Positions 41,046-53,014 of a stretch of 64,000 bases of DNA are shown piece after piece. A model generated the notes under the pieces. That model was not told the DNA's origin and did not search any database. It saw only the letters and a list, made by a program, of their open reading frames with translations. Source of the stretch: Gracilariopsis chorda (taxonomy: Eukaryota > Rhodophyta > Florideophyceae > Gracilariales > Gracilariaceae); assembly GCA_003194525.1 (NCBI GenBank), contig NBIV01000198.1:1-64000 (forward strand). The letters are read 5' to 3'. The number at the start of each line of letters is the position of its first letter. The stretch's first letter is position 1. The position numbers were made by a program, and so were the translations under genes.

Positions 41046-41050
41046 GTGGT
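41046..41050. repeat. C2 target site duplication, left copy
   Basis: GTGGT, repeated at 47929-47933 on the other side of the element. Confidence 0.95.
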
Positions 41051-41316
41051 TGGGGTAGAGTTGGACATGGTCGCGCTCGAGGACTTCTTCGTCAGCGCAC
41101 AGAAAGGGGAACGAGGAGCGATTGAATCTCTTCTTGGGCTTCTTGCCTTCGCTTCCCCGGGCCGGTTGGTCCGGCCCAATTTATTGAGTAGTCCAAGCCA
41201 AAAATGCTCCGAGTATCCTCCTCAGCAGCGCGAGCAGCGCCCGAGCTCACTGAACTACATCTGGGTAGTGATAGTGATCTTAGTGATAGGACTGTCTAGT
41301 AGGACAGGCTGTTACA
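41051..41316 (-). repeat. C2 3' LTR
   Basis: 266 bp, no difference seen from 47663-47928. It contains a strong hairpin, GGGCCGG-TTGGT-CCGGCCC, at 41159-41177. It also contains the MSNSTP start codons of gag near its inner end, as in the 5' copy. Confidence 0.96.
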
Positions 41317-41493
41317 CCCCCCTCCTTTGTGCGGAACGGGGCAGAACTTTGCGGACAATAACGGACGGAACGATATGCAGTTCGCACACAAAAAAAAACT
41401 TCTTAGTAGAACAAAGCGATTTGAAACAGTAGAACCGACAGGAAAATTTGAACAGCGGTCGGCTTTGACCGACACGGCGCGGTAGTGTAGACA

Positions 41494-41502
41494 ATATATA
41501 AG
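41494..41502 (+). promoter_or_regulatory. TATA-like box of the C2 convergent gene
   Basis: ATATATAAG on the plus strand lies about 200 bp before the first in-frame ATG (41691) and 178 bp inside the 3' LTR. It is the only clear AT-rich box in this part of the element, which suggests the gene has its own promoter rather than using the LTR. Confidence 0.45.
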
Positions 41503-41690
41503 AAGCCACCGCCGCCGCCGTCGAGTCGTGTGCTTGTCTCGGTAGCAACGCCAGTGAATAGCCCACTAGTTGAGTAACTAGGAGGGGCTTGGAGGCATTG
41601 CCGTGCATCTCTTTGTGGATACCAAAGCGAAACAAGGGCGGCGTAGCGAAGCAGTGCGATAACCAAACAACAGAAGTAGGCAGAGCCAGA

Positions 41691-41864
41691 ATGAAACGCA
41701 TGATAAAGAAACGGGGAGCAAGGGACGATGCGCGACTCGGCGCGCTTGGAGAATCACGAAGTGTTCGAACGTTCATGGCCAAAGCTGCAGGAGACCACAG
41801 CGGGGTGGTGCTATATGAGCATGGTGACAATAGCCAGTCGAGGCTTACGTGTACACGATCGTAG
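41691..41864 (+). CDS. Short in-frame ORF before the C2 convergent gene
   Basis: ATG 41691 opens 57 codons ending in TAG at 41862-41864. The next large frame is in the same phase and starts (ATG) only 15 bp later. The stretch is basic (MKRMIKKRGARDDARLG). It may be an upstream ORF, or the N-terminus of one longer protein interrupted by a stop mutation or read through. Confidence 0.4.
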   Translation: MKRMIKKRGARDDARLGALGESRSVRTFMAKAAGDHSGVVLYEHGDNSQSRLTCTRS

Positions 41865-41879
41865 GATGTGAAATGGGTC

Positions 41880-42989
41880 ATGGAAGAAGTAATTAGGATT
41901 GCGAGACGGGACTGCAATGGACGTGAGCGGTACATGCTGGAGCATTTGTGTGGCGACCATCGTCTGGTCAGAAGAGAAGAAATGAAGAAAATTGCAGGGA
42001 GTGCCATAACCCAGTGGTGCTTCGAGCGGCCAGGAAAATACTTGCACCATGATCTTGCATTCCGCATGGGGTTGTATGAACAGGAGAAGAGTGCAGAAGA
42101 GTGGGGTGTGGACACGGTTATGTTCATCCCGCACAGTACGGTGCTGCGAACTTCAGTAGGTGTACAGCGAGTAGTTGGTCCCCGGTACTATGGTAGAAAT
42201 CATGATGAACCGCGTTATGGTTGGCATGAAGTGAACTTGTATACCCTTAGTGGAGTTGGACTGGTGAATGTATTGGCACATCAGGGTATTTGGAATGGGG
42301 GCATACCCTTCAGTACTGAGCACGATTACTTGACGGACTCCACCACAATACATCCCACCAATTGTGTGGATGCAGTTGAATGCCTTGACTACTACTGCGT
42401 CCGTAATCCGTTTGTGCCGATTCGGGTCTCTAGTTGCGGAGCGCGACCTGTGACTGAAGAATCAAAAAGGTTCGCACTTAAGGAGGAGCGTATGGAGATT
42501 TGCCGAACAAGGGAACTATGCTTGCAGGCATCATTGGTTAATGGAATTGCGAGGGCAATCGGTCACGAATACGCTCGGGAAGTGATGCTCAACGGAACGA
42601 TCCCGGTCATGATCTCATTTACCAGTGCAAGTAAATGGATCAACAACAACGCGAAAAGGGTGGCGCTGAACAGGGTATGCATCAGCAAGGAGCGGTCGGT
42701 AGACAGAATTGGTTGGTTGTTAGGACAAACCGACGGGGTCTTCCTTGTTCGACTGCGAGGAAGGAATGTGGATCACGTTGTCTGTGTTGACGCGAAGTTG
42801 AGACAGATCTTGGATGCTGTCGAACAATATCCGCTTCAGCTGAGCGAAGAATCGTTGAGGTGTTGTTTGGGAGATACCAATAATTTCGAGAAAGTACTCG
42901 AGATACGCATGATAGTGGAGCGAATGGTCTCGCACCGGAAGAGTAGAAATGGTTCGTCGAAGCGAATGCGAAAGAGAGCTAGGAGCTAG
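41880..42989 (+). CDS. C2 convergent accessory protein, unknown, possible Cys-His-Asp enzyme
   Basis: A 369-residue open frame from ATG 41880, opposite to pol. It stops 25 bp before the pol-side stop, tail to tail. No transposon domain is recognised. Counting from the GTG four codons upstream, CLQASLVNGIA (C218) and DHVVCVDAKLRQILD (H303, D308) give a Cys, then His-x4-Asp pattern seen in papain-fold peptidases. This is resemblance only. The C-terminus KSRNGSSKRMRKRARS is basic and could be a nuclear signal. The frame is free of stops in an element with identical LTRs. Possible roles are silencing countermeasure or processing factor, but nothing in the sequence decides. It might also be a captured host gene. 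Confidence 0.8.
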   Translation: MEEVIRIARRDCNGRERYMLEHLCGDHRLVRREEMKKIAGSAITQWCFERPGKYLHHDLAFRMGLYEQEKSAEEWGVDTVMFIPHSTVLRTSVGVQRVVGPRYYGRNHDEPRYGWHEVNLYTLSGVGLVNVLAHQGIWNGGIPFSTEHDYLTDSTTIHPTNCVDAVECLDYYCVRNPFVPIRVSSCGARPVTEESKRFALKEERMEICRTRELCLQASLVNGIARAIGHEYAREVMLNGTIPVMISFTSASKWINNNAKRVALNRVCISKERSVDRIGWLLGQTDGVFLVRLRGRNVDHVVCVDAKLRQILDAVEQYPLQLSEESLRCCLGDTNNFEKVLEIRMIVERMVSHRKSRNGSSKRMRKRARS

Positions 42990-43014
42990 CGATAGAACGT
43001 AGAAGAAAGACAAC

Positions 43015-43397
43015 CTAGGAAGCGTTGAGAAACTTTTGCAATGATTCCGGAATGAGTCCCTCCGTCATCGATTGGTTCAAGTACTTGAAGGCGTGAGGGT
43101 TGATCTTTGTCAATGCGTCAGCTAGGTTCAAGGGTCCCGGTATCCAAATCAACTTGTTGATCTCGTTCGATTCAAAAGAATCACGTAGTCGAGCGACCGT
43201 GGGTCTCAATCGAAAGTCCTTTTGCTCGTGGAGAGTCGAAATGGTGGTGAAAAGACCATTTGAGTCGACCAGGAGTGTCAGACGAGGGCGTGGTCGATTC
43301 CCATTCATTGACATAATGTAGGCAAGGGTTTCAGACATGTGGATTGCTCGATCAGCTGTGTACGCAGCTGCCAGGACTTCTGCGCCAGCCGATGAGA
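43015..43397 (-). pseudogene. C2 pol C-terminus (RNase H end), out of frame with the rest of pol
   Basis: In a frame shifted -1 from the main pol frame, homology continues from SAGAEVLAAAY through RAIHMSETLAYIM, LLVDSNGLFTTI and NLADALTKINP, the usual copia RNase H end, to a stop at 43015-43017. The shift lies near 43395 at the AAAACCGTGTTTC stretch. Either this copy is defective or a frameshift is used. Confidence 0.75.
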
Positions 43398-46300
43398 ATG
43401 AAACACGGTTTTGCTTTGAAGTGGTTCTTGCGGAGATTTGAAGTAAAGGTGAGGTTTCAGGGAACGAATGTGTGTCAGGGCAGCGTTAAGTTGACGAATG
43501 TTTGACACTTTGAGTTTCGACACATATTGCTGCATCTTGCTAGCGACAAGAGAAGCTTGCGGGAGTATGCCATGTCCCAGGAAATTCAGTTTGCCAGTTA
43601 GTCTCTGATATTCCCCGATTTCCTGTAGCGTGCAAGGTTCATCGTTTTGTTTCTTGCGCGAAGGGGTGAGATCAATACGGGTAATTGAGCTCAGGAATTC
43701 ATCCATGTTGATGGATACGGAGAAGTCTGGGTGTTGTCGAATGAAAAGACGATTGAACACGATGTCTGACTCAGAGCTGAATCTTCCAACATCAAACTTC
43801 GCAGATATGGACTTCTGGAATTGTTGGATAGCTTCAGGCTCTCCAGCGAAGATCATGTCGTCGACAACTTTGGCAAGGATAAGCGTGAGCTTACTTCTCT
43901 TCCACAGAAGAAAGAACTGAGGAACACCAGGAAGATCGACGAATCCCTGCTCAAAGAGCCAGTTCTCAACACAGAGTTGCCAAAGCCGGCCTGACTCTAC
44001 GAGGCCGTAGGCTGGGGCTAGGAGTTTCCATACCTCATCGACAAATTTCGTCCATCCTCGTGGAGGTTTCATGTAAATGTCCCTATTCAGTTTTCCAGCT
44101 TGAAGATATGCGGATTTTACATCAAGGGAGGCGAGAGTGAAATGAAACACTGTCGCAAGAGATAGAAGCAATCTAAGAGTAGGAAACTGGGCCGTTGAGG
44201 AATCAGAGCGCAAATCGTGCTTCTGCTTGTCTTTGTTACCATGAGGAACAAGACGACACTTCAGTTTCAACTGGTTGCTTTCCCCATCGTGCTTGATTAC
44301 GAAGAAGTGATGTGACGAAATCAAGTTGGCATTACGAGGAAGAGAGCGTATGGAAACAGGTACATAGGCCTTCCGTTCGGCATATGACTTCTTTTCCTTT
44401 TCAATAGCCTCATCTAGCAACCAACGTGGGGCACATTGAAGTTTATGCTCCGACAAAGGTTCGTTGCCGAGACATTGATAGAGGTTTCGGAGTATTGTCT
44501 GCTTTGCGGAGGTCAAGGTCGTGGATTTAGGCACGGTGCTCTTGACTGAGGCGTACTGACCAATATCCTTTGACGGGTGGTTGACTGGTGTGACCAGTGC
44601 GCTTTGAGCAAGGTAAGCAACGCTAGAGGGATGATCATTCCAATCGGCATAGTCGGATTGGTTGAAGTCAGTGTCGAATGGAAAAAGAGTTGGTAGGTCA
44701 TCTGACACTGTCACTAACTCGTTGTTTTGTGTGTTGTCAACGGGTGGTGAAATTGGACTTTCCGAGGTTGGATTTGTGGCCCGGTCAAGGACAAGTTCAT
44801 TCCATCCAAGTTCTATTTCTTCCACTTCGCGAAGTAGGTTAGACTTGGGTTGGAGGCGTAAGTCTTCATACGCTACCGTATGGCTGTATCCTTTGAGATT
44901 CTTTGTCGAGGATACGATTACATAGTGTTCACTCACTTCCTTGACGAATCCGGAATACCATTTTCCTCGTTTGGTTCCCTTTTTGAAGAAGTACACAGGG
45001 GTGCTAGGTTTAAGGAGAGTTCGGTGGAGGCAGTTCACATTCCTCGAACGAATGAAGCGATGGAGAGCATGGCGAGCAGTTTTCTCGTAATATGCGGAGA
45101 GAAGCTGCTTGCTGACGGGGGTCTGATCGAGTCCTGACAATGCGGGACGGTATCCACGCGCAAGTTCAAAACTTGACATGAATCTTGAGCCTGTGAGACT
45201 GTTCTTAAGAAAGACCGCTCGAGCGACAATCTCTTGATCAGAGTGAACTGGAAGTCCGTTAGCGGCAGCGAAGCCTCTTTCCTCAATGAGCTTTTGGGCA
45301 AAATATCGAATAGCTTCATGAGATGATTCTGCAATGCCTAACTTGTTGTGGCGTCGTGCAGGCCGAGGTTTGTATTGGATGTTGTGTGAGGCGCACATGG
45401 TTAAGAAGTCGCCCTTGAAGAACTCAGGGTCCGCTGATAGTTCAACGGGTGGTCCGTTGATGCTAATCCAGTGGGTATTGAGACACTTCGACGCTTCTTT
45501 CATTGTGCGTGAGAAACACAGGGCCGCTGCAGAAAAACCCGTTGCAGCGTCCTTCATGTGTAAAATTGGAAGGTTTCCAAGTTCCGCGATGAACATGAAA
45601 TCCAACTGCACATGTTCGTTGAACTCTTTCAACAACCGAGAAAACGAAACCTTGCGAGATGCAAGTGGCCTTCCTGTTGAGGCACAGGTCTTGCAAGATG
45701 AGTACGCCTCACTTAGCAGTGACTCTAAGGTTCTGGTTAGTACTCCTGCACGGCTACAAATCCTTTTCATGTCCCTTGGATTGAAGTGTGTGTAGAGGTG
45801 GAAACGCTTCGCGAATCGTTCCTCATTTTCGATTAGTTTCTTGGCAGAGCGTCCTTTCCTGGGTTGAGCCAACATCGATCTTACGGAAGTTGTGCATGAA
45901 GGAACGAGCAGGATATGAATTCTTTTATTCGAGTCACTTCCTGTGTGGTAAGTTGGTATAACAACCGGGACAGAGTTCGAGACAGTTCCTGTTGGGGCTT
46001 TGATCTGGCTTTGTTCGCCGAGAATGTCGCATTGTGAAAGAACGTCAAGTCCAATGAGCAAAGGGCAGGTTCCTTCAACGACGTAGAAATGGATGGAAAA
46101 CGAATTTTCTCTCTCATCACTGCTGTGGAGAGTCCATTTGGCGAACGTTGGTTTGGCATCTACACAGTCTTTGCCAAAACCATGGAGGAAAGGCGAGCAG
46201 TCAAGATCTTCCAGAACTATTTCTATCCCCATTGACGTGCAAAGTTGGGCAATAGAGTCGAGTCCACCAACACTTTTTGGACAACCAGGGTCGATAATGG

Positions 46301-46400
46301 GGTTCGGATCAGTTGAAAAGCTTATGATGTCCGAATTGGCTCCTTCCCCCGCAGTTAAAGATGACTGCGTTGAGAGGGGTTGGAGCCCTGACGAAAAGAC
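43305..46400 (-). CDS. C2 pol: protease, integrase, reverse transcriptase, start of RNase H
   Basis: A long open frame that overlaps the end of gag in the -1 phase (first in-frame ATG at 46232 is internal). The protease site reads PIIDPGCPKSVGG near 46300, with D-P-G-C in place of D-S/T-G-A, followed by LLIGLDVLSQ. The integrase region is diverged: a CKTC pair, QLDFMFI with the first Asp, SADPEFF with the second and GIAESSHEAI with the Glu. The RT has SLDVKSAYLQAGKL and the palm VVDD. RNase H is cut at 43305 by the frameshift. The order confirms the copia superfamily. Red algae and diatoms have copia lineages with such divergent proteases, as far as I recall. Confidence 0.88.
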   Translation of the reverse strand, partial: VFSSGLQPLSTQSSLTAGEGANSDIISFSTDPNPIIDPGCPKSVGGLDSIAQLCTSMGIEIVLEDLDCSPFLHGFGKDCVDAKPTFAKWTLHSSDERENSFSIHFYVVEGTCPLLIGLDVLSQCDILGEQSQIKAPTGTVSNSVPVVIPTYHTGSDSNKRIHILLVPSCTTSVRSMLAQPRKGRSAKKLIENEERFAKRFHLYTHFNPRDMKRICSRAGVLTRTLESLLSEAYSSCKTCASTGRPLASRKVSFSRLLKEFNEHVQLDFMFIAELGNLPILHMKDAATGFSAAALCFSRTMKEASKCLNTHWISINGPPVELSADPEFFKGDFLTMCASHNIQYKPRPARRHNKLGIAESSHEAIRYFAQKLIEERGFAAANGLPVHSDQEIVARAVFLKNSLTGSRFMSSFELARGYRPALSGLDQTPVSKQLLSAYYEKTARHALHRFIRSRNVNCLHRTLLKPSTPVYFFKKGTKRGKWYSGFVKEVSEHYVIVSSTKNLKGYSHTVAYEDLRLQPKSNLLREVEEIELGWNELVLDRATNPTSESPISPPVDNTQNNELVTVSDDLPTLFPFDTDFNQSDYADWNDHPSSVAYLAQSALVTPVNHPSKDIGQYASVKSTVPKSTTLTSAKQTILRNLYQCLGNEPLSEHKLQCAPRWLLDEAIEKEKKSYAERKAYVPVSIRSLPRNANLISSHHFFVIKHDGESNQLKLKCRLVPHGNKDKQKHDLRSDSSTAQFPTLRLLLSLATVFHFTLASLDVKSAYLQAGKLNRDIYMKPPRGWTKFVDEVWKLLAPAYGLVESGRLWQLCVENWLFEQGFVDLPGVPQFFLLWKRSKLTLILAKVVDDMIFAGEPEAIQQFQKSISAKFDVGRFSSESDIVFNRLFIRQHPDFSVSINMDEFLSSITRIDLTPSRKKQNDEPCTLQEIGEYQRLTGKLNFLGHGILPQASLVASKMQQYVSKLKVSNIRQLNAALTHIRSLKPHLYFKSPQEPLQSKTVFHSHRLAQKSWQLRTQLIEQSTCLKPLPTLCQ

Positions 46401-47680
46401 TTGTCGTTGGTGTCAGGTGGCTTTTGATGAGCGTATTTTTCCTTTCGAAGACGTTTGGTCTGGAAACTCGGTTCTTTGCATTGCGAGTCGCCTCTGATGT
46501 GGTCCCTCTTCCCACAATCGTAGCAGTACGTATCCTTGATGTCCGTTCTGCGCTTCTTGTTCGAACCTTGTTTACCTTTCGACAAGCGATTACGAGAACT
46601 GAGATCGGATGGTCTGCGAGACGAGGCTGAACCAGGGTTATCGGAATGCTTTTGGAAGGCAGCGAGAGCTCTTTGGATACGGTTCTCAACCAGGTTGTCG
46701 ACGCGCTGAGTAGCAATGTTCTCGATGTCGTTCTTGGTGTACTGCTTTTCCATCTTCTTCGAAGTGAAAGCAAGGTTTCGTATCACCGTGACTGCGTCAT
46801 CGAGATTCAAGCGACGTCGAGGAGTTGTCGAGAACATATCGTCGTTAGTATGCGTTTCGTTGCTTCCAGTTTTAAGATGATCGATCTGCTCCCTGTTCGA
46901 GTCCAGGAGTTGACTAACACCTTGTACCATGTCAGTAGCTTTGCTACGAACGGTATTAGCGTTGTCGGTAGGTTGTGGTACTGTTTCGTCATTTTCCACA
47001 AGATCGGATAACCTATCGAACATTTGGAGCAGAGCCTGATGCGTTGAGGAGTTGATCGACATTTTAAGATCAGCGTCCACCTTTTTGCGAGATTCAGCTA
47101 AAGCAACCAACTGAAGAATCGCATTCGTCAATGTTTCTTCACTCAGCATGGCATTATTGAGGAGTGTAATGGCCAATACTTCGCTAACCTGTGACGAAGT
47201 CGAGACACCCACATGCATCAAATGATCGGCAGCAAGACTTCGGAAACGAGCGACGAAAGCCTTCAAATCTTCACTACGGCGACGCTTGCACTGCATGACC
47301 TGTGTAAAAGAGGTGATGAGGCGAGTGACTACTGCAATAGGAGGGTCGACAGCAATCAGCTGAACGATTTCCTTGACAGCCTGAAGTTGATCATCTTGTT
47401 TGTAATCGATGAGCTTACTTCTTTGTGCTTCGTCAACAACACGTTTCTGCTCTCTGGACAAACCGCGGTCGTATAGTTGGCGACCAATTGTAGCGTACAC
47501 GGTTTTGTAAATTTTGTCCTCTCCAAGGTTTGCAGCTGCCTGAATAGTTTCGACCCATCGCGTAACATCCTTCCTGTACTCTTGGAAGTCGCCTTGCGGG
47601 TCAAACATTGGCGGGTCGCTGGGAGCGAGCGACTTTGGGAGTGTTGGAGCTGGGCCCATAACTGGGGTAGAGTTGGACAT
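46355..47680 (-). CDS. C2 gag, starting inside the 5' LTR
   Basis: The first ATG is at 47680, 18 bp inside the LTR edge (47663), and the frame reads MSNSTPVMGPAP across the LTR end with no stop. 441 residues. The middle is helical and charged, and residues about 350-420 are Arg/Lys-rich. Near the C-terminus is a Cys/His cluster CYDCGKRDHIRGDSQC, a knuckle with wider than usual final spacing. Gag starting in the LTR is known from yeast Ty1. It ends at 46355 overlapping pol. Confidence 0.85.
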   Translation of the reverse strand: MSNSTPVMGPAPTLPKSLAPSDPPMFDPQGDFQEYRKDVTRWVETIQAAANLGEDKIYKTVYATIGRQLYDRGLSREQKRVVDEAQRSKLIDYKQDDQLQAVKEIVQLIAVDPPIAVVTRLITSFTQVMQCKRRRSEDLKAFVARFRSLAADHLMHVGVSTSSQVSEVLAITLLNNAMLSEETLTNAILQLVALAESRKKVDADLKMSINSSTHQALLQMFDRLSDLVENDETVPQPTDNANTVRSKATDMVQGVSQLLDSNREQIDHLKTGSNETHTNDDMFSTTPRRRLNLDDAVTVIRNLAFTSKKMEKQYTKNDIENIATQRVDNLVENRIQRALAAFQKHSDNPGSASSRRPSDLSSRNRLSKGKQGSNKKRRTDIKDTYCYDCGKRDHIRGDSQCKEPSFQTKRLRKEKYAHQKPPDTNDKSFRQGSNPSQRSHL

Positions 47681-47928
47681 GGTCGCGCTCGAGGACTTCT
47701 TCGTCAGCGCACAGAAAGGGGAACGAGGAGCGATTGAATCTCTTCTTGGGCTTCTTGCCTTCGCTTCCCCGGGCCGGTTGGTCCGGCCCAATTTATTGAG
47801 TAGTCCAAGCCAAAAATGCTCCGAGTATCCTCCTCAGCAGCGCGAGCAGCGCCCGAGCTCACTGAACTACATCTGGGTAGTGATAGTGATCTTAGTGATA
47901 GGACTGTCTAGTAGGACAGGCTGTTACA
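47663..47928 (-). repeat. C2 5' LTR
   Basis: 266 bp, matching 41051-41316. Minus-strand termini are TGTAACAG and TACCCCA. Confidence 0.96.
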
Positions 47929-47933
47929 GTGGT
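47929..47933. repeat. C2 target site duplication, right copy
   Basis: GTGGT, identical to 41046-41050. Confidence 0.95.
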
Positions 47934-49336: not shown

Positions 49337-50840
49337 TCAACATCGACCCTCGTCATCCAAACCGCCATGATCCGTGACGTACCCTTGGCAATCCTCGCTT
49401 GCATCGGGCTGCACTGCATCGTACATGAACCGTTCTTTTCCGTCACAGATGTACCTCTTCAACCGTAAGGAAATTGGCCCATTCTTCTTAGAAGACAAAT
49501 CCCACCATGTTCTGCTCTGCGTCATCGCCCAGATATGAGACAGCCCTTCCACTGTGTTCGCTCTTTGCATATCATCCCATTTGTACCGCGAAATAACTGC
49601 CAACGTCAACCCGAGTACAAGCACCACGATCACCTCCATTGCACCAACGACAATTACGACCACATCCAGCTCCACAGAACGGGTTTTCTCGTCTCCTGGG
49701 ACTTCCACCGTTACGTTACTGGCCCTCGAGTACAGAATTGCCCGTATCATTAGCAAGAACTGGAATCTGGTTGTGGGTGGAAAGCGAAATTGATGTCGAC
49801 TAAGATGTCCGGCGTTAATTATGATCTCATTCTTGTACTCCAGACTTCCGATAAACTCGAATGTCGTTGAAACTATGGATTGCTTCGAAACGAGATTTCC
49901 GCCTTGCTCCAAGATCCTGGTATTGCTTTCGTTGGCCAAATCTTGTACAGAAGTGAAATAGAAATCCACAAAGTTTCCTGTAACATTCTGACAAACAAAT
50001 GAATCCAACACATATTCGTATATCCGATCCTCCCGGTCAAAAGCGTGCCCCTCCGCTACTGGTGCACGCCAAAAAAAGCATTGAAAGTCTTTCGTATCCA
50101 ATACTGTGACGTTCTTCACTTGAAGATATTGCCGGTTTGGGTCGTCATCTTCTACACTAGGCCATGGTGAAAATCTCTTAAAGGGGCCTTCGTCTCTCCA
50201 CACCTCCAGCGTGAGATTTGGTTGATAGACGAAAGTTTTTTCTTTAGATTGGTCATTCACAACAACTGAGGATTCGACAAAATGAGGAGTTTTTTCCACC
50301 GTTCGATAGACGGCCTGTTCAGTCCCTTTCACGCAATGAATTAGATCTCGGTCTTTCCCGACAAGTGTGACATTTGCTATCTTTGCGATGACCCATCCGT
50401 CGTCATCTCTTGCAGCACATCGATGGAACACCTCCTCTGGTAGCAACACAACATTGCGAGGATCTCGCTGTTCAGACCATAATGGGTGTACGTCATGGTA
50501 ATTCGGTTGCGAGACATATGCGTTCCGTATGAGTTTCTTAACGGGGATCGGATTGGAGTGCGATATGAAGCGGGTCTCAAGGTAAACTGGAATGACAATG
50601 CACGCGATTCGAATGAGAAAAAGCAGTAAATGAGATGGCTGACGATGGAAGAGGCCTTCATTCCAAAGAGGATAGGGGATGCTTCGGACCCGAATTGACT
50701 TTCCCATGACAGCTCGTCTGAAGACGAAAAATGAGGCGAGTGCGGACGTAGCATACATCAACACGGGAAAGACGAGTAGCTCAGAGATTAGGAAAAAAAA
50801 ACGCAGCAACCACACCTGCGCCGAATGGAATCGTGAGCAT
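49337..50840 (-). CDS. Membrane protein, three predicted TM segments, paralogue M1
   Basis: The open frame of 492 codons begins at a GTG at 50815. However, an ATG at 50840 followed by LTIPFGAGVVAAFFF matches the start of the paralogue (VVVPFSSGVVSALLF). The two frames are separated by the nine-base A run at 50793-50801, where eight bases would join them. Hydrophobic segments: near the N-terminus, at RIACIVIPVYLET, and at DVVVIVVGAMEVIVVLVLGLT near residue 400. The large middle part has several N-x-S/T sites and Cys, as for an outer domain. Family signatures shared with M2: PLWNEGL, ILYSRASNVTV, NTVEGLSHIWA. The function is unknown. Confidence 0.8.
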
Positions 50841-51547: not shown

Positions 51548-53014
51548 ATGGTCGTTGTTCCGTTTTCCAGTGGAGTCGTGTCCGCTTTACTTTTCCTGGC
51601 TTTCGAAATCATCGTGTTTCCTCTTCTGTTTTACTCCACCTCCATACTCGCATCGCTCTTCCTGTACCGCAACGCGCGGAAGGGCAACGATGTCGTTATT
51701 GACAAAATGAAATTTCCTCTCTGGAGTGAAGGCCTCAGTCGTCACCAAACCTCACATTATTCTCTTCTCGCAATTCGAATCGTTCTCATTGCCATTCCGG
51801 TGTATCTGGAGACAACGCTTGAATCCCGCGAGGAACCTGAGATGGTTTCAAGAACAGTTACGCATGCATTTGTTCCACAACCTACAGACGATTGGTACAC
51901 CTACCAAATTCGCTCCGGGGAACACATTGATTCACTTCGACGTACAGGGTTAAACACATTCCTTGCATGCACGTCCGTGGATGAAAAAGGATGGGTATGG
52001 GCAAAAGTGGCGAACTTCACCTACATACAAGAACACGATGCACATCAGATACGATGCGTGAGTAACACTGAACAACCGATCTATAGTCTGACGGAAGCGA
52101 CGGTTAAATACGGACCTGGAAATGTGCAACTCCTGAAAATGAGCGTTTCTTGGACTGAGGGGCGTGTTGCAGACTTCCCTCAGGCTCTTGTGCTGAAAGA
52201 CAGGTTTGGCAGGGAGGCACCGCCAGGCGAAACTGCATTTCGTGTACACAACGCCGTCGCCTTGAACGACACAGCCGTGAAATGTTACTTTCCACAAACC
52301 GTGAGGACGCGCTTTTCAAAGTCTCGGAATGGTCACCCGCATACGGCATGGCGGGGATGGTGTCAGAAGGAAGAGCCAATCGGAGTCGCATTCTATTCGC
52401 TACTAGTTAATATGGATCAGCTTCCTATGCATAATCTCTCGTACGAAACACGCGAAAGAGGACGCTGCGGCAGCTCGTGCAAATTGCGTAGTAGAAACGC
52501 CACCACTGTGCTCGAGATTGTTTATCGAGGGAGTTTTCAGTTCAAAGACAAGGTTCTTCTGGGTGCGAAGCATTTGGCAAATTACATACCGGACTACGAT
52601 AGTTCACTTAGAGCGTCAGATATTGCTCAATGTATCTTGTACTCAAAAGCCAGTAATGTAACAGTTCTGACGCTATCTGGGCGTACACTACCTAGAACCG
52701 AGATAGAAGGAAGAGCCATAATCATTGCAATTTCTGAGATCGTGGTCGTGTTGCTTTTTGCGTTGATGCTATCTTGTGCTAGGCTGTCGAAATGGGGACA
52801 CATTCAACAACCTAATACCGTCAGTGGTCTCTCAAACTGTTGGGCAGAATCTCAAAAGGCCTTGTCGCATCAAAGGACAAAAGAGGGCAAATGGATCAAA
52901 TTGAGACTGCGCAGAACTGGTTCCGAAGGTGAGGGTCCGTTACGATTCACAACCTCCGAAACCATGAGAAACGAACAGAAATTGGAGAATGTTAGAGCGT
53001 TTGAGGAATTTTGA
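51548..53014 (+). CDS. Membrane protein, three predicted TM segments, paralogue M2
   Basis: 488 residues from ATG 51548 in ACCATGG context. TM1 is about 9-38 (SALLFLAFEIIVFPLLFYS), TM2 about 72-88 (LLAIRIVLIAIPVYLET), and TM3 about 389-411 (AIIIAISEIVVVLLFALML). The ~300-residue middle domain has Cys and several N-x-S/T sites and probably lies outside the cell or in a lumen. The ~75-residue tail is basic. It shares with M1 the motifs PLWSEGL, IPVYLET, ILYSKASNVTV and NTVSGLSNCWA, so the two arose by inverted duplication. I do not recognise the family. Confidence 0.85.
   Translation: MVVVPFSSGVVSALLFLAFEIIVFPLLFYSTSILASLFLYRNARKGNDVVIDKMKFPLWSEGLSRHQTSHYSLLAIRIVLIAIPVYLETTLESREEPEMVSRTVTHAFVPQPTDDWYTYQIRSGEHIDSLRRTGLNTFLACTSVDEKGWVWAKVANFTYIQEHDAHQIRCVSNTEQPIYSLTEATVKYGPGNVQLLKMSVSWTEGRVADFPQALVLKDRFGREAPPGETAFRVHNAVALNDTAVKCYFPQTVRTRFSKSRNGHPHTAWRGWCQKEEPIGVAFYSLLVNMDQLPMHNLSYETRERGRCGSSCKLRSRNATTVLEIVYRGSFQFKDKVLLGAKHLANYIPDYDSSLRASDIAQCILYSKASNVTVLTLSGRTLPRTEIEGRAIIIAISEIVVVLLFALMLSCARLSKWGHIQQPNTVSGLSNCWAESQKALSHQRTKEGKWIKLRLRRTGSEGEGPLRFTTSETMRNEQKLENVRAFEEF

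Follow-up and report, generated by a model that had tools for sequence, protein, structure and literature searches.

Amongst the closest described counterparts of the locus presented here are Grande and RIRE2, two gypsy elements of plants. Antisense extra open reading frames (ORFs) are known from LTR retrotransposons and are described without a known function (PMC7264820); the roles proposed for them are regulatory or DNA-binding (PMC7264820; PMC11963269), and antisense-RNA roles have been discussed for other elements (PMC7264820). The ORFs of Retand, likewise a plant gypsy element, carry TRP28 (PF04195) (PMC7264820; PMC11963269). A survey of plant elements defines reverse-oriented extra ORFs as one class, reports extra ORFs of at least 250 codons, in any orientation, in 582 copia elements, and distinguishes by mutual similarity 45 copia and 314 gypsy groups, which were read as independent acquisitions (PMC6317226). 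LTR retrotransposons of bdelloid rotifers carry extra ORFs, called ORF3, of the GDSL, DEDDy and env types, which are common to diverse retroelements (PMC5408684), and the cysteine protease domains Ulp1 and OTU occur in Ginger transposases and in Mutator and Helitron proteins (PMC2836005). Among the titles and abstract openings listed from the open-access literature, none describes an antisense gene family that is common to copia and gypsy elements or that has a cysteine protease-like signature.

In the red alga Gracilariopsis chorda we find that copia and gypsy elements alike carry one protein family, reversed and at the same place in the element, with a selection signal and candidate active-site residues. 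The organisation is that of Grande, RIRE2 and Retand: the ORF lies between pol and the 3' LTR on the opposite strand, it is present in most copies and conserved across families, and, as far as the accounts cited go, the genes on both sides are kept in many copies with no function assigned (PMC7264820; PMC11963269). Unlike the proteins described for Retand, the red-algal one has no Pfam match (no TRP28), has a Cys-His-Asp set and occurs in copia as well as gypsy elements. Whereas the plant survey (PMC6317226) reports separate groups for copia and gypsy, a single red-algal family spans both superfamilies. The first-pass annotation, which was aware of no well-described copia case in algae, had considered the gene possibly new; this needs qualification, as antisense extra ORFs are a known class whose reverse orientation is defined in that survey. 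As in the bdelloid rotifers, types of accessory protein are common to very different retroelements of one genome, but there the sharing extends to Penelope-like elements (PMC5408684), whereas in the red alga it is between Ty1/copia and Ty3/gypsy and antisense in 53 of 53 copies for which pol was found. Like Ginger, Mutator and Helitron, these elements carry a candidate cysteine protease-type domain; in those DNA transposons the domains are recognised ones (PMC2836005), whereas the red-algal candidate is a separate antisense gene without a family match. The best overall explanation, to which we assign a probability of roughly 60%, would be an accessory protein encoded antisense to pol, which may be a cysteine protease and which was exchanged between the superfamilies. 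That the ORF is a real accessory-protein gene we hold to be highly probable.

The window, by which we mean the whole stretch of 64,000 nucleotides that was analysed, contains a copia element on the minus strand at 41051-47928, with the following features.

41051..41316, minus strand: 3' LTR, 266 bp, 100% identical to 47663-47928; GTGGT at 41046-41050
41317..41328, minus strand: presumed polypurine tract AAAGGAGGGGGG, adjoining the 3' LTR
41495..41502, plus strand: TATATAAG, possible core promoter between the 3' LTR and the ORF; weak, absent from most families
41574..41867, plus strand: upstream stretch of 98 codons, in frame and open in 6 of 10 near copies (ATG at 41691) and partly open in 3 more
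41868..42989, plus strand: convergent (antisense) ORF, 374 codons from stop to stop, 373 codons plus stop from GTG
43015..46412, minus strand: pol (protease region, RVT_2 reverse transcriptase, RNase H); upper limit approximate, frame broken near 43414
46355..47680, minus strand: gag-like ORF, named gag by position, no convincing Pfam match
47649..47662, minus strand: presumed primer binding site GTTATGGGCCCAGC, adjoining the 5' LTR
47663..47928, minus strand: 5' LTR, 266 bp; GTGGT repeat at 47929-47933

The identical LTRs with their target-site duplication, together with a copia-type reverse transcriptase (RVT_2, PF07727, E 4.6e-23 in the Pfam search), place the element in Ty1/copia (Pseudoviridae), and we take GTTATGGGCCCAGC to resemble a match to the inside of the initiator tRNA-Met. 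The coordinates agree with the first-pass annotation in three respects: the LTRs differ at no position, the GTGGT duplication is perfect, and an opposite-strand frame, of 369 codons if counted from the first ATG at 41880, lies between the 3' LTR and the pol stop (43015-43017 on the minus strand, as read from the translation), ending 25 bp from the latter. The element is young. Its description as complete does not hold, however. Pol lacks 145 bp at about 43414, the sole such case among 8 aligned copies, and RNase H consequently lies in another frame; in the sister sequence a repeat of about 10 bases flanks the deleted stretch, which fits template slippage. The antisense frame is also cut relative to its sisters, since a TAG at 41862-41864 closes the upstream stretch: the A at 41863 occurs only in the window copy as against 7 sister copies, in which the codon is TCG, and the other nine of ten near copies read through this site, their frames ranging from 406 to 471 codons and reaching 471 in six of them. 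With its extra gene cut by a stop and 145 bp of pol missing, the window copy is not fully working.

An open frame arising by chance was considered and rejected, as only 1 of 2000 dinucleotide shuffles of 41317-43014 gave 374 open codons and the comparisons between families show selection. TATA-like sites, as possible promoters, lie upstream of the ORF in 6 of the 16 regions scanned, one family accounting for two of the six; this is no better than the chance estimate of about 4.

Seven matches to the phycobilisome linker domain, each on a different contig, agree with a red-algal genome. The 1.7-kb segment that holds the ORF has 43 DNA matches in the 91.3-Mb genome, of which 16, the window included, are full-length at 99-100% identity; therefore it is no single late insertion into the window copy. 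All 373 codons are open in 10 of these 16, the remaining 6 being broken and lying on the short contigs C677, C678, C1008 and C1064, and the comparison with sister copies that had been proposed for the ORF has accordingly found it present and, in those ten, fully open. A protein search of the genome listed 114 matches, counted as pieces rather than loci, with identities as low as 29%; amongst them are three stop-free full-length matches at about 50% identity, with frames of 389-478 codons, while many listed copies of the ORF contain stops. Used as queries, the public protein P0001 listed 106 matches, two gypsy versions 105 and 104, and the protein encoded on contig C439 64, in lists that overlap and are counted unmerged. 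P0001, the one public protein found to match the family, is 99% identical to locus L051 of the same genome. Two further protein searches gave no relative outside this genome among the candidates listed, one of these negatives being weak, as that search missed P0001 even though it was in its query alignment; a scan of viral contigs was likewise negative.

The first-pass annotation had described an extra gene, convergent with pol, in a copia element. It is indeed present there, but to speak of copia alone says too little, since homologues occur in Ty3/gypsy elements of this genome as well: relatives of the antisense ORF occur in diverged copia lineages and in three Ty3/gypsy subfamilies. Opposite to the ORF, L063 and L070 encode Ty3/gypsy polyproteins that combine integrase domains with RT_RNaseH (E 5e-39 and 1.5e-37), and integrase domains are likewise found on the opposite strand of L064. 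LTR pairs surround both gypsy examples checked (C25, 97.8% identity over 268 bp; C154, 94.7% over 171 bp). The P0001-type element is a copia element (RVT_2, E 3.5e-18 in L055), whose pol is 27% identical to that of the window over 312 residues. Context was scored by tblastn (E 1e-5) in the 57 distinct ORF copies examined, after overlapping loci had been merged by hand, a count of ORF-bearing copies. Convergent pol lies downstream of the antisense ORF in 53 of the 57 (40 copia, 13 gypsy), and pol on the same strand in none. The other four are C46, in which the ORF is interrupted and its last part matches 11.5 kb further on, C33 and C23, each with less than 210 bp of flank covered, and C439.

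By comparison of listed coordinates, no match to the antisense ORF lies within 5 kb of any of the best 150 of 2239 RVT_2 candidates; the copia families among these 150 have no antisense gene at the search sensitivity used, and it is therefore not needed for copia transposition in general. The related gypsy loci L064, L066, L067 and L071 have a second antisense ORF of about 200-240 amino acids between the first one and the gypsy pol, with SGDEITGFDCLCPEL in L064 and split over two frames in L067.

The antisense protein is about 270-470 amino acids long. Its N-terminal part varies, whereas about 170 amino acids at the C-terminal end form a conserved domain. Cys, His, Asp, Asp, Glu and Leu are invariant in all 15 cores, which were chosen as open or nearly open, and conserved residues hold over families with less than 30% identity. 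In the window, the central ones are encoded as follows.

42519..42521, plus strand: codon of Cys218, the proposed nucleophile; invariant in 6 of 6, 11 of 11 and 15 of 15 chosen sequences
42774..42776, plus strand: codon of His303; invariant in the same three alignments (6, 11 and 15 sequences)
42813..42815, plus strand: codon of Asp316, the proposed third triad residue; invariant in the same three alignments, as is Asp308

Cys and His are separated by 82-94 residues, and the distance from His to Asp is 13 in 16 of 17 sequences, this distance having been part of the search pattern. Broken copies show replacements, of Cys by Phe in L049 and by Arg in L053 and of His by Gln in L034; these three were left out of the alignments A2, A3 and A6, while L047 and L048, also from broken copies, were kept in the core alignment A6, which is without L067 (truncated) and L054 (motif not found). 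The order Cys-His-Asp fits papain-like cysteine proteases and differs from the order in Ulp1, which is His-Asp-Cys. In the chosen sequences both the papain-like (clan CA) order Cys-His-Asp/Asn and its invariance are present, and placement of the Cys at a helix start is seen only in structure models whose pLDDT of 32 (window protein) and 34 (P0001) is too low to show the fold.

Searches of Pfam, NCBIfam and PDB sequences matched no known domain or family to the antisense protein and detected no homology to a known peptidase family. PF04195 (TRP28) had no match in the window protein, in 11 members of A3 or in the 15 cores of A6, and the Pfam families of OTU (PF02338) and Ulp1 type (C48) had none up to E 1 with 11 sequences and up to E 5 with the 15 cores. 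Matches at noise level were discarded: Colipase-like (E 0.76-0.77), beta-lactamases (E 0.048 and 0.13), PRK10167 (E 0.094), thiolase (E 0.16), lipovitellin (E 0.022), a designed protein (E 0.17) and Fur (E 0.99). A resemblance of the N-terminal part to a chromodomain was considered, and Pfam gave it no support. Taken by itself, the proposal that the protein is a cysteine protease stands at about an even chance, and the Cys, His, Asp, Asp and Glu set could also form a metal site or another active site.

One alternative is an accessory protein that is no enzyme and acts as a nucleic-acid- or chromatin-binding regulator, similar to the role proposed for TRP28 in Retand, in which case the conserved residues would bind metal or hold the fold. 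We consider this unlikely, although the Arg- and Lys-rich C-terminus of the window protein would suit it, regulatory or DNA-binding roles have been proposed for antisense extra ORFs (PMC7264820; PMC11963269), and no protease family was recognised. Pfam likewise recognised no DNA-binding domain, and the way in which Cys, His and Asp are ordered, spaced and kept unchanged resembles an active site.

Under the preferred reading, the gene would be an accessory-protein gene of LTR retrotransposons, situated downstream of pol and before the 3' LTR; lying on the other strand, it would need its own promoter near that LTR, and its product would be made separately from gag-pol. This product would most likely be a papain-like (clan CA style) cysteine protease or a deubiquitinase-like enzyme. 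We speculate that its target might be a host restriction or processing step, both substrate and benefit being conjecture. The fuller version, which we offer tentatively, is a mobile antisense module encoding a new cysteine protease-like family of red-algal copia and gypsy elements, which would be transcribed antisense to the element, starting at its 3' end, would counter host defence or carry out processing, would have been traded between element types and would have given rise to, or been taken from, the host gene on C439.

The protease region of the elements themselves bears on a related idea. In the copia clade of the window the aspartic protease motif is not D[TS]G and reads DPG (window, ~46280-46320, and L044), DPS (L039), DIG (L041) or DIR (L043); by contig, the five copia elements have DPG in the window and C153, DPS in C369, DIG in C99 and DIR in C71. 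The antisense protein might be thought to substitute for a decayed aspartic protease, but both gypsy elements checked (L074 and L076) keep the motif DSG, and protease substitution is therefore no general explanation.

The exchange between superfamilies is suggested by comparison of the proteins. When the six-row copia alignment was compared by hhalign with gypsy alignments of two, three and two rows, the probabilities were 95.6%, 98.0% and 98.5%, with E 1e-8, 2e-13 and 4e-15, respectively, the last over 308 columns and thus most of the protein; single-sequence searches also cross the boundary between copia and gypsy (E 8e-11 and 1e-11). Judged from these profiles and searches, the copia and gypsy antisense proteins are homologous. 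The tree, which has 17 rows, intermixes copia and gypsy: a branch with support 91/92 separates a group made up of six gypsy rows, the C439 row and two copia rows (P0001 and L057) from the gypsy rows L069 and L070, which stand with the copia clade of the window. An ancestor of both superfamilies may have had the gene, which other lineages would then have lost. Such vertical inheritance would agree with the result for copia as one clade, which is not rejected (p-AU 0.088), and with the mere two changes between superfamilies that the tree requires; gypsy as one clade is, however, rejected (p-AU 0.007), and the gene was found only in G. chorda, given that P0001 is nearly identical to a locus of this genome and no others were among the candidates listed. 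We regard vertical inheritance as improbable and hold it likeliest that the gene crossed between the superfamilies at least once. Because long branches meet in this tree, the claim is held to at least one transfer, and no number is given.

The protein appears to have been under selection over the longer of the distances compared. Amongst near copies, change looks neutral: ten open ones have 13 variable codons (9 nonsynonymous and 4 synonymous changes), three close copies of the L031 subfamily give dN/dS 0.9-1.4, and the close pair L069/L070 gives 0.82 without an excess at third positions. Between gypsy versions purifying selection is shown, with dN/dS of 0.12-0.41 in six more divergent pairs, five of which lie within L064, L066, L067 and L071 and so are not independent. 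The window compared with L031, the sole copia pair tested at such depth, has dN 0.45 and saturated dS. In all seven divergent pairs, this one included, third positions have changed more than first and second ones (Fisher p 0.008 to 8e-29). Together, selection between families and neutrality among near copies form the pattern of a gene on which the replicating lineage depends but which may decay once a copy has inserted; since young copies are neutral, a dN/dS near 1 in sister copies alone would mislead if taken as refutation. Maintenance had earlier been suggested from an intact frame in a fresh element, with dN/dS below 1 as the check. That ground gives way, as the frame is cut, pol is broken and near copies are neutral, with a ratio of about 1; the conclusion survives on other evidence, for the ratio is below 1 in the six gypsy pairs, and the between-family comparisons and invariant residues make the gene appear maintained.

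These results also bear on the proposal that the antisense transcript matters and not the protein, convergent transcription giving double-stranded RNA that limits copy number while the frame is incidental. The fixed tail-to-tail layout would accommodate this, and antisense-RNA roles are under discussion for other elements (PMC7264820), but an incidental frame is hard to bring together with low dN/dS between gypsy versions, with the excess at third positions, with residues invariant over families of such low identity, or with frames that stay free of stops over 389-478 codons while identity is about 50%. The proposal is strongly disfavoured.

One homologue lies outside any recognised element. 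It is a 424-codon open frame at C439:5221-6492 (L068 2122-3393), 32% identical to its nearest relative, with no long direct repeats within the 4.4 kb searched and no DNA similarity to the element loci compared; its coding part is unique in the genome at the DNA level, and an RNB-domain match (L082) lies about 1 kb away. In the tree it joins the gypsy rows L063 and L065 (support 96/95, long branch). We see it as a candidate for either a domesticated copy or the host source, such that the elements may have taken the gene or given it. Although this single-copy homologue might suggest a host gene captured once as a passenger by one insertion or family, that notion is very improbable, and as a single-copy event refuted, in view of the 16 near-identical full-length copies and the further families, open at about 50% identity, in both superfamilies.

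With an antisense accessory protein as the preferred reading, the family suggests that accessory genes pass between the two superfamilies within a single host, much as they do among viruses, and the C439 gene offers a candidate case of host domestication or capture. Selection appears to keep the antisense gene, which suggests a benefit to these genomic parasites, and the candidate active-site residues make the function of antisense genes directly testable by mutating a single residue.

Further observations concern arrangement. The window element also occurs in head-to-tail tandem copies on C678, C677, C1008, C1064 and C51, with a period of 6740-6767 bp, close to what one LTR and the internal region add up to in an undeleted copy (6612 + 145). 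The gypsy family of L069 has four matches about 6.72 kb apart in C43:285745-306275, and C383:36202-50459 contains six RVT_2 matches at a spacing of about 2.7-2.8 kb, possibly an array of truncated copia copies. Beyond the 5' LTR of the window element, two divergent ORFs of 492 and 488 amino acids (49337-50815, minus strand, and 51548-53014, plus strand) are alike by eye and are perhaps duplicated membrane-protein genes.
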